From Pseudoxanthomonas indica (GTDB lineage Bacteria > Pseudomonadota > Gammaproteobacteria > Xanthomonadales > Xanthomonadaceae): DNA of 64,000 nt. Position 1 is the stretch's first letter; each line of letters starts with the position of its first letter. The translations under genes were made by a program, and so were the position numbers. The stretch spans positions 248,001-312,000 of the forward strand of contig NZ_FUZV01000002.1 in assembly GCF_900167565.1 (NCBI RefSeq). The letters run 5' to 3'. Shown here piece by piece: positions 8,745 to 18,188 of the stretch. The notes under the pieces are model-generated. The model was given only the letters and a program-made list of their open reading frames with translations, was not told the origin of the DNA and made no database searches.

Positions 8745-10147
8745 GTACGTTTGTCTCATACGCGCAGAATTTCGAAGACGTCATGTTGCGGCGCGCATTG
8801 CGCGACGTAACGGAGGGTTTCTACATCGATGTGGGGGCCAACAGCCCCGTCATTGATTCAGTCAGTTTGGCGTTCTACCAACTTGGCTGGCGCGGCATCA
8901 ACGTAGAGCCTTCGATCGAGTTCATCAACCAGCTGCGCGAGCAGCGGTCCCGCGACATCAATCTGCATGCAGCGCTGTCGGATGAACCGGGCATGCTGAA
9001 GTTCTTCGATTTTCCACAGACGGGTCTCAGTACCCTGGTCGAGGAAGTCGCACAGCAGCATCTAGCGTCTGGCTTCGAGGTGAAGGAGGATTGGGTTTCC
9101 GTCGTCACCTTGGATGACGTTTTCGCCCAGGTACCCGTGGATGAGGTCCATTGGCTGAAGGTCGATGTGGAGGGAGCCGAAAAACAGGTACTGGATGGAT
9201 GGAGCAAGTCCGAGGTTCGGCCCTGGATCGTGATCGTCGAGGGAGTGGACCCGGAGCAACACGCGCCGTCGCATGCCGAGTGGGAAAGTGGCTTGCTTGC
9301 GAAGGGATACCGGTTCGTCTATTTCGACGCCTTGAACCGTTTCTATGTGTCAGAAAAGCACCTGCATCTGGCCGATGCGTTTTCCCTTTCCCCGAACCTG
9401 TTCGACAGATTCGCATTGAGTGGAACCGCTACCTCGATGTTTACCTCGTCGCTGGCGCAGCAAGCCCGCCAAGCCCATGCGGAGGCACTGGCAGCGATCG
9501 AGGATGGGCGCAGAAGGCGCGAGCAGCATGAGCATCTTCTGGAAGAACTTGCGCAGCGCTACCAGTCGGAGCGCGAGGCGTTGCAGAGCCGGCTGATTGC
9601 CACGCTTTCGGAGTATCGAGGCATCGTCCAGGAACGCGACGCGGCAGCGGCAACCCTGCAACGCACGAGTGACGAGTTGGTGGTGGCAAGAAGGGAGTTG
9701 TCGGAGTTTGCTGCCGTTCGCGAAGACCTGGCGCATGAGCTTGCAGTCAGCCGCCAGCGCGAGGCCATGCACAAGGCCGAAACGCGCCTGGTCGAGATGC
9801 AGATCCGGGAAATCCGCGCCAGCACGTCATGGACAATCACGGCGCCGCTTCGCTTCACGGTGTCGTTGTTGCGCGGCAAGCGTGCGGACGCTTCGCAGTA
9901 CCTGCGTGAGGCACTGAAAGGAGCCGCAAATATCGGCTGGTTGCGCGCGCTCGCACGCACGCTGATCCCTGCTGACAGTCGCCTCAAGCGTGCCCTGGTT
10001 GCGCGCATCGTAAGTGCACCGACGGTGGTCCACGCCGGTGGTGTCGCCTCGATACTGCTGAGTGAGTCAGGGGCACCGATGGGTCCGGAGCGCGCCCAGC
10101 TCCTGAGCAGGATGAGGCGTGCCTCGGGACCGGAGCAAATGCGATGA
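8741..10147 (+). CDS. FkbM-family methyltransferase with coiled-coil tail
   Basis: A 468-residue protein. Residues about 1-225 are an FkbM SAM-dependent O-methyltransferase: the SAM loop FYIDVGANSP is near residue 27, and LKVDVEGAEKQVL is near 142. Residues about 240-365 are a long coiled coil rich in Glu/Arg/Ala/Gln, followed by a motif SWTITAPLRF seen in many surface-glycan enzymes and a basic, partly amphipathic C-terminus. The layout (methyltransferase, coiled coil, C-terminal membrane-association region) parallels the chain terminator WbdD of E. coli O9a, although WbdD also carries a kinase. It sits between wzt and the large glycosyltransferase with 4-bp overlaps on both sides. The inferred role is methylation of the growing end of the glycan. 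Confidence 0.8.
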   Translation: MSTFVSYAQNFEDVMLRRALRDVTEGFYIDVGANSPVIDSVSLAFYQLGWRGINVEPSIEFINQLREQRSRDINLHAALSDEPGMLKFFDFPQTGLSTLVEEVAQQHLASGFEVKEDWVSVVTLDDVFAQVPVDEVHWLKVDVEGAEKQVLDGWSKSEVRPWIVIVEGVDPEQHAPSHAEWESGLLAKGYRFVYFDALNRFYVSEKHLHLADAFSLSPNLFDRFALSGTATSMFTSSLAQQARQAHAEALAAIEDGRRRREQHEHLLEELAQRYQSEREALQSRLIATLSEYRGIVQERDAAAATLQRTSDELVVARRELSEFAAVREDLAHELAVSRQREAMHKAETRLVEMQIREIRASTSWTITAPLRFTVSLLRGKRADASQYLREALKGAANIGWLRALARTLIPADSRLKRALVARIVSAPTVVHAGGVASILLSESGAPMGPERAQLLSRMRRASGPEQMR

Positions 10148-15779: not shown

Positions 15780-18188
15780 ATGATGATTGACGAGTCCGGT
15801 AAGCGGCTGGATGTCTGGCGATGCCTGGAGTTGCTGGCCGTGGGGATACTGTCCGCGTCCATACTTGGCCTGCTGGCGATGCGCTTGGGTGTCTTCCACG
15901 CGTGGCCGATCTGGCTGCTCAGCATTCTGGCCACGTTCGCGTATGGCCACCGGTTTCCCGCCACTGCCGCGAAACCGCTGATTGAGCCGCCGGCCTGGCA
16001 TGTGCTCGTCATCGTGCTGGTCGCACTGCTGTTCCGGCTGACACCTTATGTGTATCAGCTCGGCGGACAGGATGAAGGCATCTACACGAACATGGCCGCC
16101 TATCTGATGCACACAGGTGGCCTGGTTCCGTCCGATGCCATCCTCCAGTCGTCCACCAGTGCAGAAGCCCGCTCGGCCTATCTGCTGGGCAACTATTCCG
16201 CGCCCAAGCACTACTTGCCTGGGATCTACGGCGTGGAAGGAAGCCTGGAATTCCAGTTCTACCACTTGTTCCCCGTATGGTTGGCCTTGTTCGGCGACAT
16301 CCTGGGTGTCGACAAGATTGGCTATGGTCTGTGCTTCCTTGCACTGGTCTCCGTGGTCTTCTTCCAGCGGGTTGCGCACCAGCTGACCGGGAGCGCCAAG
16401 GCCGGGCTTGTGGCGGGGTTGCTGCTCGCAGTGAACCCGCTGCATGCCTTTTTCTCGAAGTTTCCCGTCACTGAAATCCCGACGCTCGCCTTCTCGCTGA
16501 TATCGCTGTCGTTTCTGCTGGCGTACTGGAAGGCACCCGAAGATCACGCGCAGCGGCGTTACCTTTACATCTCCGCGCTGGGGATGGCTGGGTTGTTCAT
16601 GACTCGCATCAGCGGATTCATGTATTTGCCACTGATCCTTGGCGTGCTTTTCCTGGCGCTGATGATGGACCACCGTTCCCTCAAGCGGCGTCCCCTGCTG
16701 GGATGGGCCGGTCTGACCATTGCCCTGTACGTCGCGAGCATTGCCTACGGACTGGAATGGTCACGTATCTATTCCGTCGACATCTACAACTCCTCATTCG
16801 GTCCCGCGCTTGGCCCGCGCTGGAAGTTTTACGTACTGGCGCTGGTGGTCGGGCTGGGCTTGGCCTGGGTCGCCTTCTGGTACGCGGCCAACGAGCAGAG
16901 GCGACAAGCGAATCTGCTCAAGACACTGCAGCCGTTGCAGTTCCTGTTGCCGGTGATACTGGTGGCGGCCACTGCCATTTCGCTCTGGCGCGCCTATCGA
17001 CTCGGTTACACCGACGCCTACGCCGAGCACCAGTGGTACGGCAAGATGTTTGGCCTCTCTCACAGTGGGTACTATGCGCTACGGTCAGTAAGTCTGATCG
17101 CGACCACCTTGTACGTATCTCCCTTCCTCCTGTTCGGGTTCTATGTCGCCAGCGTGAGGCGTCGGCTCGACCCCGCCATGGCAATCCTTCTGGTTTTCGT
17201 CACGGCGGTCTACTGCTACATCGCCGTGCTGCAGTGGGTCCTGCCCTATCAACCGTACTACGCACGTTATCTGGCCAGTGAGTTCGTGCCCTACATGCTG
17301 TTGTTCGTCGTGGTCAGCTGGCAGCAGGCGCCGACTGGCAACCTCAGGCGTTTCCTTGCGTCCTGTCTGGTGATTTGCGGGGCGTGGAGCTTGGTGTTGA
17401 GCGTCCAGCAGATCGGCAAGAACGAGCATCAGGGCGTGCAGCAGTCGCTTACCCGCCTGTCCCAGCATTGGGATCCGCGAGACCTGGTGTTCGTCGACAA
17501 AGGCATGACGGAGCCGCTCGCGCACGAAGTCAAGACCGCGCTGGTCTACACCTACGGAATCAACGTGGTCACCGTAACGCCACCGGACTTGCAAGCGGGT
17601 GGTTACGGGCATCGTCTGGCCTCGACCTACAATGACGTGTACTTCGTGACCCGCAGCCTGGTCGCGCCTCCGGGCTTCACCGAAGTGGACTCCGTCGACT
17701 TCCTCGAAAAGTTCTATTGCCACGGCTCGATGCCGCCGACGGAACTCTGCGTGCGTAGCGACAGTCGCTTGATGGTCTACAAACGTACCAGCCTGCCTCC
17801 TGCAGTGGCCGGTGACACGGCATTGGCGCTCAACGCGGATTCGCGCAAGATTGGCACGCTGGTCGGCACGCGCGAAGGCGCCCGGATCGTGGCCGATGGC
17901 CGTGCCGGCGTGCTGATGTTCGGACCTTACGTGCCACTGGGGGCCGGGCGCTACACGGTGGAAGTGCGGGGTACCGGCAGCAAGCCGTTTACGTTGGACC
18001 TGGTCGCCAACAAGGGGCGCGAGGTCATTTACCGCAGCACGTTCGAGACGGCGAAGGATGGCAAGGCAGGCATCCTCGCCAAGGCCGACGTCGAATTGAA
18101 GCAGCCAGTGGACGATCTCGAAATTCGCCTTCTGGTGCAGCCGGGCTCGGATGCCAGCATCGACGGCTACGTGGTCCTTCACCGATGA
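15780..18188 (+). CDS. Large GT-C-like membrane protein with C-terminal beta domain
   Basis: An 802-residue integral membrane protein with about 11-12 hydrophobic segments between residues 15 and 560. The first large loop contains GGQDEGIYTNMAAYL (D98, E99), the Asp-Glu motif position of GT-C/ArnT-like lipid-linked-sugar transferases. A soluble region (about 560-690) follows. Residues about 695-801 form a beta-rich domain (GPY at 715, AGRYT at 722) that matches the end of the 1196-residue transferase. A 107-bp gap separates it from rmd. A likely role is adding a side-chain sugar to the O-polysaccharide on the periplasmic face, using the polyprenol-linked sugar made by the facing GT2 gene. Both the role and the family are inferences. 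Confidence 0.6.
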   Translation: MMIDESGKRLDVWRCLELLAVGILSASILGLLAMRLGVFHAWPIWLLSILATFAYGHRFPATAAKPLIEPPAWHVLVIVLVALLFRLTPYVYQLGGQDEGIYTNMAAYLMHTGGLVPSDAILQSSTSAEARSAYLLGNYSAPKHYLPGIYGVEGSLEFQFYHLFPVWLALFGDILGVDKIGYGLCFLALVSVVFFQRVAHQLTGSAKAGLVAGLLLAVNPLHAFFSKFPVTEIPTLAFSLISLSFLLAYWKAPEDHAQRRYLYISALGMAGLFMTRISGFMYLPLILGVLFLALMMDHRSLKRRPLLGWAGLTIALYVASIAYGLEWSRIYSVDIYNSSFGPALGPRWKFYVLALVVGLGLAWVAFWYAANEQRRQANLLKTLQPLQFLLPVILVAATAISLWRAYRLGYTDAYAEHQWYGKMFGLSHSGYYALRSVSLIATTLYVSPFLLFGFYVASVRRRLDPAMAILLVFVTAVYCYIAVLQWVLPYQPYYARYLASEFVPYMLLFVVVSWQQAPTGNLRRFLASCLVICGAWSLVLSVQQIGKNEHQGVQQSLTRLSQHWDPRDLVFVDKGMTEPLAHEVKTALVYTYGINVVTVTPPDLQAGGYGHRLASTYNDVYFVTRSLVAPPGFTEVDSVDFLEKFYCHGSMPPTELCVRSDSRLMVYKRTSLPPAVAGDTALALNADSRKIGTLVGTREGARIVADGRAGVLMFGPYVPLGAGRYTVEVRGTGSKPFTLDLVANKGREVIYRSTFETAKDGKAGILAKADVELKQPVDDLEIRLLVQPGSDASIDGYVVLHR

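Follow-up and report, generated by a model that had tools for sequence, protein, structure and literature searches.

Two otherwise unrelated glycan enzymes of Pseudoxanthomonas indica, which we call proteins A and B, end in the same domain of about 120 residues. Both are encoded in a 64,000-nucleotide stretch of contig NZ_FUZV01000002.1 (positions 248,001 to 312,000; hereafter the window), within an O-antigen gene cluster. On balance, we think that this shared tail, which we will call the GPY module, is a mobile beta-sandwich akin to carbohydrate-binding modules (CBMs), and we predict that it binds glycans and holds envelope-glycan enzymes on their acceptor polymer.

The shared domain and its predicted fold

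Protein A (10144..13734, + strand; 1,196 amino acids) has two GT4-type glycosyltransferase stretches (Pfam Glycos_transf_1, E = 2.7e-39; 134.9 bits versus a cutoff of 26.4), a middle part that varies, and a C-terminal module (13342..13710, + strand; residues 1067–1189). Protein A has 35 matches in NCBIfam, of which the best 25 are listed. Protein B (15780..18188, + strand; 802 amino acids) is a membrane protein with a predicted GT-C fold, and its C-terminal module is at 17829..18182 (+ strand; residues 684–801). An earlier note on this DNA had described both reading frames correctly and had noticed that GPY (residue 1096 of A and 715 of B) is followed seven residues later by AGRYT (1103 and 722). 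The conserved run that comes next is also present in both proteins, but the note placed its A and L too close together: the run is A-x-A-x-x-x-L-x-x-P-x-x-D-L-E-(L/I)-R. Similarly, the G-Y that was described as terminal does lie near the end of both proteins (RGYYLSP... in A and DGYVVLHR in B), but in A it is followed by another 15 residues.

The tails are the only significant match between the two whole proteins. BLASTP aligns A 1067–1181 to B 686–797 with 57 bits, E = 4e-12, and 38 of 116 positions identical (33%); the other listed matches have E of 1.4 or more. The local alignment score of the tails is 138, as compared to a mean of 28.2 (standard deviation 4.9) and a maximum of 67 for 5,000 shuffles.

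Simple hydropathy gives no transmembrane helices in A and eleven in B. Asp98 of B is invariant across 36 aligned sequences, as expected for the conserved acidic residue of a GT-C enzyme; the structural model and B's relatives suggest that it lies in the first extracytoplasmic loop. By analogy to solved GT-C enzymes, the module of B would be on the periplasmic side. Because A is a GT4 protein without a transmembrane helix, and B is a GT-C protein with its module after a soluble domain, the module is probably used on both faces of the membrane. This part of the earlier proposal, and the claim of a true common domain, hold up; the idea that the domain is peculiar to these two enzymes does not, as several architectures carry it.

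Structure prediction, which had been suggested as a check, gave the same fold for both tails: a jelly-roll or beta-sandwich like that of solved CBMs. The structural relatives of the module include CBM6/16/35/4 and the porphyran CBM 8xmz. Unlike these, the module has no sequence-level CBM match, and identity to them is only about 8–16%: no named CBM family was found in Pfam for A, B, or 30 aligned modules, or in the PDB. (A PDB sequence match, AlBeta86, had E = 4.5e-5 but is composed of two weak stretches, and we consider it irrelevant.) Nor did Pfam find Wzt_C (PF14524) among the 30 modules. A Wzt or GT136-like domain is absent from the VIA lists for the modules, which carries no evidential weight. 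Some members of the fold family bind proteins, for example the Eph ligand-binding domains. Copies of the module are diverse, with a mean column identity of 32%. Across 76 sequences, conservation peaks at glycines, GPY, and E-x-R, and no sugar site is evident. The tree of the modules has poor resolution, with 5 of its 27 inner branches starred, and we gave it no weight.

Carriers of the module and its replacement by another domain

Searching with the tail of B gave matches in 10 of the 250 genomes from the order, and searching with the tail of A gave matches in 15 of the 297 genomes from the family. Profile searches matched at least 55 of 297 genomes of the family (profile A4) and at least 6 of 369 genomes of the class (profile A2); these are lower bounds because at most 14 (A4) or 11 (A2) candidates were scored per genome. 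(All of these tallies include P. indica itself.) In P. indica, we found the module three times. Besides those of A and B, there is a third module (G000:C2:1261963-1262331; loci L003 and L066) that ends a different membrane protein, a 645-codon open frame remote from the cluster.

With a hidden Markov model built from 11 tails, we found that GT4 proteins, several families of membrane proteins, OpgB-type proteins, and lipoprotein-like proteins end in the module; the model recovered proteins outside the 11 at E of 5e-31 to 5e-13. (One locus, L036, is unassigned, and two weak matches, L020 and L064, were excluded from the alignments.) The module is appended to carbohydrate-active enzymes of the GT4 and GT-C types, and relatives include sulfatase-family proteins. 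The module was matched in all 11 module-bearing glycosyltransferases that we compared to A, and residues 1 to about 400 or beyond of A were matched in 10 of them. Residues ~861–1060 of A (12724–13323) have no match in Pfam, and when searched alone against the compared GT4 proteins, the best E was 0.18.

For protein B and the proteins of L017 (752 amino acids), L053 (775), L054 (662), and L050 and L058 (one family; 709 and 737), similarity between families is confined to the tail, with one exception: in L053 and L054, the shared region is longer and starts at residues 586 and 483. We also noticed a weak relation between the L003 and L058 proteins over 366–603. Among the 18 loci L079–L096, 16 encode relatives of the sulfatase-family protein of L021 (5790-7892, + strand; Pfam Sulfatase, E = 1.6e-28), and L079 and L080 belong to the L050/L058 family. 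("Phosphoglycerol transferase" is one source's name for a similar protein, P0003.) In all 16 of the OpgB-type loci (L081–L096, from related genera), the module is degenerate and GPY is lost; a relative, L057, retains it.

Six loci encode small proteins with a lipobox and little beyond the module: L017 (8490-9110, - strand), L049 (10176-10829, - strand), L050 (15549-16055, - strand), L051 (8012-8848, - strand), L055 (9041-9598, + strand), and L056 (9871-10425, + strand). They have 168 to 217 residues, except that the frame in L051 has 278 and its true start is likely later. A script found the lipobox pattern in five of the six, and in L051 we identified LVAC by eye. These are candidate lipoproteins for handling O-polysaccharide. 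The small proteins of L055 and L056 have glycan genes among their neighbors; the one in L055 adjoins etf genes.

In the relatives of B, the C-terminal position is often occupied by a different domain. Using residues 1–690 of B as the query, and scoring the 7,999 candidates with the most shared words, we found 271 proteins, of which 120 are listed (including B). Excluding B leaves 119 proteins, of which 46 have the GPY module at their end (E < 1e-5) and 70 have a domain resembling DUF7024 there (six-sequence profile A5, E < 0.05). Three pass neither threshold: P0096 and P0135 stop before the module, and the tail of P0146 looks like DUF7024 by eye. Pfam is stricter and assigns DUF7024 (PF22895) to just 5 of the 119; of seven DUF7024-like proteins that were scanned, five pass and P0073 and P0131 have no match. 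In a tree of the B cores without their tails (120 rows, quick method, LG+G4), the GPY module and the DUF7024-like domain replaced each other at least twice, leaving aside the three proteins that pass neither profile.

The five PF22895 assignments led us to consider that the GPY module might itself be a member of DUF7024. We rejected this: neither A, B, nor any of the 30 modules matches DUF7024 above Pfam's gathering cutoff, and the hhalign probability is 0.5%. By sequence, DUF7024-like tails are a separate family that takes the same C-terminal slot. P0006 has a partial DUF7024 match (residues 5–86; 20.0 bits, below the cutoff of 24.4) that is followed by a GPY module. DUF7024-like tails occur in B relatives among P0042–P0160, and DUF7024 is also found in GT4-like and GT2-like frames (L101 and L102; enzyme types judged by eye). 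DUF7024 matches a protein in E. coli as well, which we take to be OpgB. Our literature search, which reached few of the subscription journals, found no paper that names DUF7024.

Proposed role of the module

Characterized O-antigen systems suggest how the module might work. In C. youngae, the GT-C enzyme ORF12 (GT136) has a C-terminal CBM that binds its O-antigen polysaccharide in vitro, and ORF12 remained active without the CBM under the conditions tested (PMC11127046). Like B, ORF12 is encoded in an O-antigen locus and is a GT-C enzyme whose C-terminal CBM is beta-rich and predicted to be periplasmic (PMC11127046). However, the GPY module is also found on GT4, OpgB-type, and lipoprotein-like proteins; we compared it to the ORF12 CBM by description, not by sequence. 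The GT136 three-component system has PPPRS and MATE partner genes; the gene next to B encodes a GT2 protein. The CBMs of Wzt bind chain ends (PMC11231755, PMC10629545). Wzt_C, which is encoded in this cluster as well, resembles the module of A in that both would act in cytosolic glycan recognition during ABC-dependent O-antigen export; Wzt_C differs in being on the transporter ATPase and recognizing the chain terminus. Finally, the K. pneumoniae O7 terminator ORF6 has a CBM-like domain that is predicted to be immunoglobulin-like (PMC11231755). This is another predicted CBM on an O-antigen assembly enzyme, but on a terminator instead of a GT4 protein (again compared by description, not sequence).

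By analogy to ORF12 and Wzt, the GPY module most likely holds the acceptor. In the cytosol, the module of A would hold the growing O-polysaccharide, which probably contains D-rhamnose, while the GT4 units extend it; Wzm and Wzt would then export the polymer. On the periplasmic side, the module of B would keep hold of this polymer as the GT-C unit attaches a side-chain sugar to it; the sugar would come from a polyprenyl-phosphate donor, which is suggested by B's fold and the neighboring GT2 gene. When carried by OpgB-type enzymes and lipoproteins, the module may hold other periplasmic glycans. If the module does bind glycans, then it could be useful as a reagent and for predicting which enzymes contact the polymer, and the lipoproteins would be candidates for factors that handle O-antigen. 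Single CBMs on O-antigen enzymes are already known; what is new is the unnamed sequence family, its use on both faces, and its lipoprotein form. Our literature search, with the same coverage of journals, turned up no title on a module common to both faces.

We also considered that the module might bind protein instead of sugar, as a docking or oligomerization domain that joins the polymerase, the exporter, the GT-C enzyme, and the lipoprotein. This is a real but distinctly less probable explanation. It would fit with the module's position at or near the C terminus in the members found, with best-conserved residues that look structural, with the protein-binding members of the fold family, and with several proteins of one cluster carrying the module. 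However, copies on opposite faces of the membrane cannot directly dock to one partner, and both the exchange with DUF7024-like domains and the presence on OpgB-type enzymes are better explained by a ligand-binding module.

Somewhat less probable still, the module could be a generic stabilizing cap: a beta-sandwich that formerly bound sugars and now has no conserved ligand. The low identity between copies, the loss of GPY from all 16 OpgB-type loci, and the dispensability of the ORF12 CBM for activity (PMC11127046, under the conditions tested) would be consistent with this. On the other hand, the module is retained on GT4 proteins whose middles, for the most part, have lost their BLASTP match to A, and it is present in short lipoprotein-like proteins that have little else to stabilize. 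We rejected the idea that the tails are alike by chance or composition, given their BLASTP E value, that none of the 5,000 shuffles reached their score, the E values from the 11-tail profile, and the common predicted fold.

Returning to an acceptor-holding module, an unlikely extension is that one lectin-like family follows a single polysaccharide from the cytosolic polymerase to the side-chain transferase in the periplasm and, in certain clusters, on to a small lipoprotein that holds O-polysaccharide and hands chains towards ligation, with GPY and DUF7024-like domains being exchanged when the glycan changes. If so, the C-terminal slot would be a readout of glycan specificity.

Within single clusters (the window, L017, L049, L050, and L104), this one unnamed family is found on proteins of both faces, and in the B family, another domain takes the slot in most of the other branches examined. 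The module is on a GT4 protein, a membrane protein, and a lipoprotein in G235 (L017); on a GT4 protein, a B relative, and a lipoprotein in G457 (L049); and on two glycosyltransferase-type proteins, a membrane protein, and a lipoprotein in G475 (L050). In L104, a module-bearing GT4 protein and a B relative are side by side. GDP_Man_Dehyd-family genes are also found in L017 and L050, and an FkbM gene in L017 and L049.

Several observations weigh against a simple model of matched pairs. Four loci, L106, L108, and L109 from Rhodanobacter and L111 from Frateuria, combine a GT4 protein that carries the GPY module with a B relative that ends in a DUF7024-like tail (E from 5e-8 to 1e-4 among 24 proteins; at the threshold of an earlier comparison, only the B relative of L111 passed). 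No module lipoprotein is among the three matches in P. indica, itself a lower bound. And modules from the same cluster are not detectably more alike. A first comparison gave 31.1% for the 10 pairs within clusters and 26.4% for the 179 pairs from different clusters (p = 0.0006 by permutation), but it was confounded: it mixed in distant singletons and omitted the 709-amino-acid protein of L050. The pair from G360 (L051/L052, on two contigs) was used in this comparison alone. When restricted to the multi-module clusters (the window, G235, G457, G475, and L104; 14 sequences, including the 709-amino-acid protein), the values were 28.4 within and 29.4 between (p = 0.82), or 30.4 versus 29.8 without that protein (13 sequences; p = 0.22). 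So, we dropped the idea that modules within a cluster are more alike.

The surrounding gene cluster

The cluster is of the ABC-transporter O-antigen type. Beyond a metB-type Cys/Met pyridoxal-phosphate enzyme at its left border (4100..5314, + strand; Pfam Cys_Met_Meta_PP, 4.1e-150) are genes for a GT4-type glycosyltransferase (5324..6703, + strand; GT4-conflict, 6.6e-12, and Glycos_transf_1, 2.4e-10), a wzm-like ABC-2 membrane protein (6700..7494, + strand; ABC2_membrane, 2.2e-23), a wzt-like ATPase with its own carbohydrate-binding domain (7491..8744, + strand; ABC_tran, and Wzt_C at 9.6e-28), and an FkbM-type methyltransferase (8741..10147, + strand; Methyltransf_21, 3.6e-24), which is possibly a chain terminator.

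Between A and B are a gmd-like GDP-mannose 4,6-dehydratase (13574..14770, + strand, scanned from 13631; GDP_Man_Dehyd, 3.4e-134) and an rmd-like reductase (14713..15672, + strand, scanned from 14773; GDP_Man_Dehyd, 2.2e-46). These coordinates are for entire open reading frames, and the true starts may differ. All 20 of the reductase's NCBIfam matches are below their cutoffs. Together, the two genes suggest that GDP-D-rhamnose is formed and that the cluster's product contains D-rhamnose.

Downstream of B is the GT2 protein (18230..19189, - strand; Glycos_transf_2), with C-terminal hydrophobic stretches (by eye) and NCBIfam matches resembling AglJ, PpgS, and ArnC, all below their cutoffs. It is possibly a polyprenyl-phosphate sugar synthase that supplies B. 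It is followed by a manC-like GDP-mannose pyrophosphorylase/isomerase (19210..20613, - strand; NTP_transferase and MannoseP_isomer), a phosphomannomutase/phosphoglucomutase (20629..21990, - strand; from the same type of domain scan), and, at the right border, etf alpha and beta genes (22072..23821, - strand; ETF and ETF_alpha). In xanthomonads, the variable lipopolysaccharide locus is situated between metB and etfA, and the cluster in the window (4100-23821) likewise sits between metB-type and etf genes.
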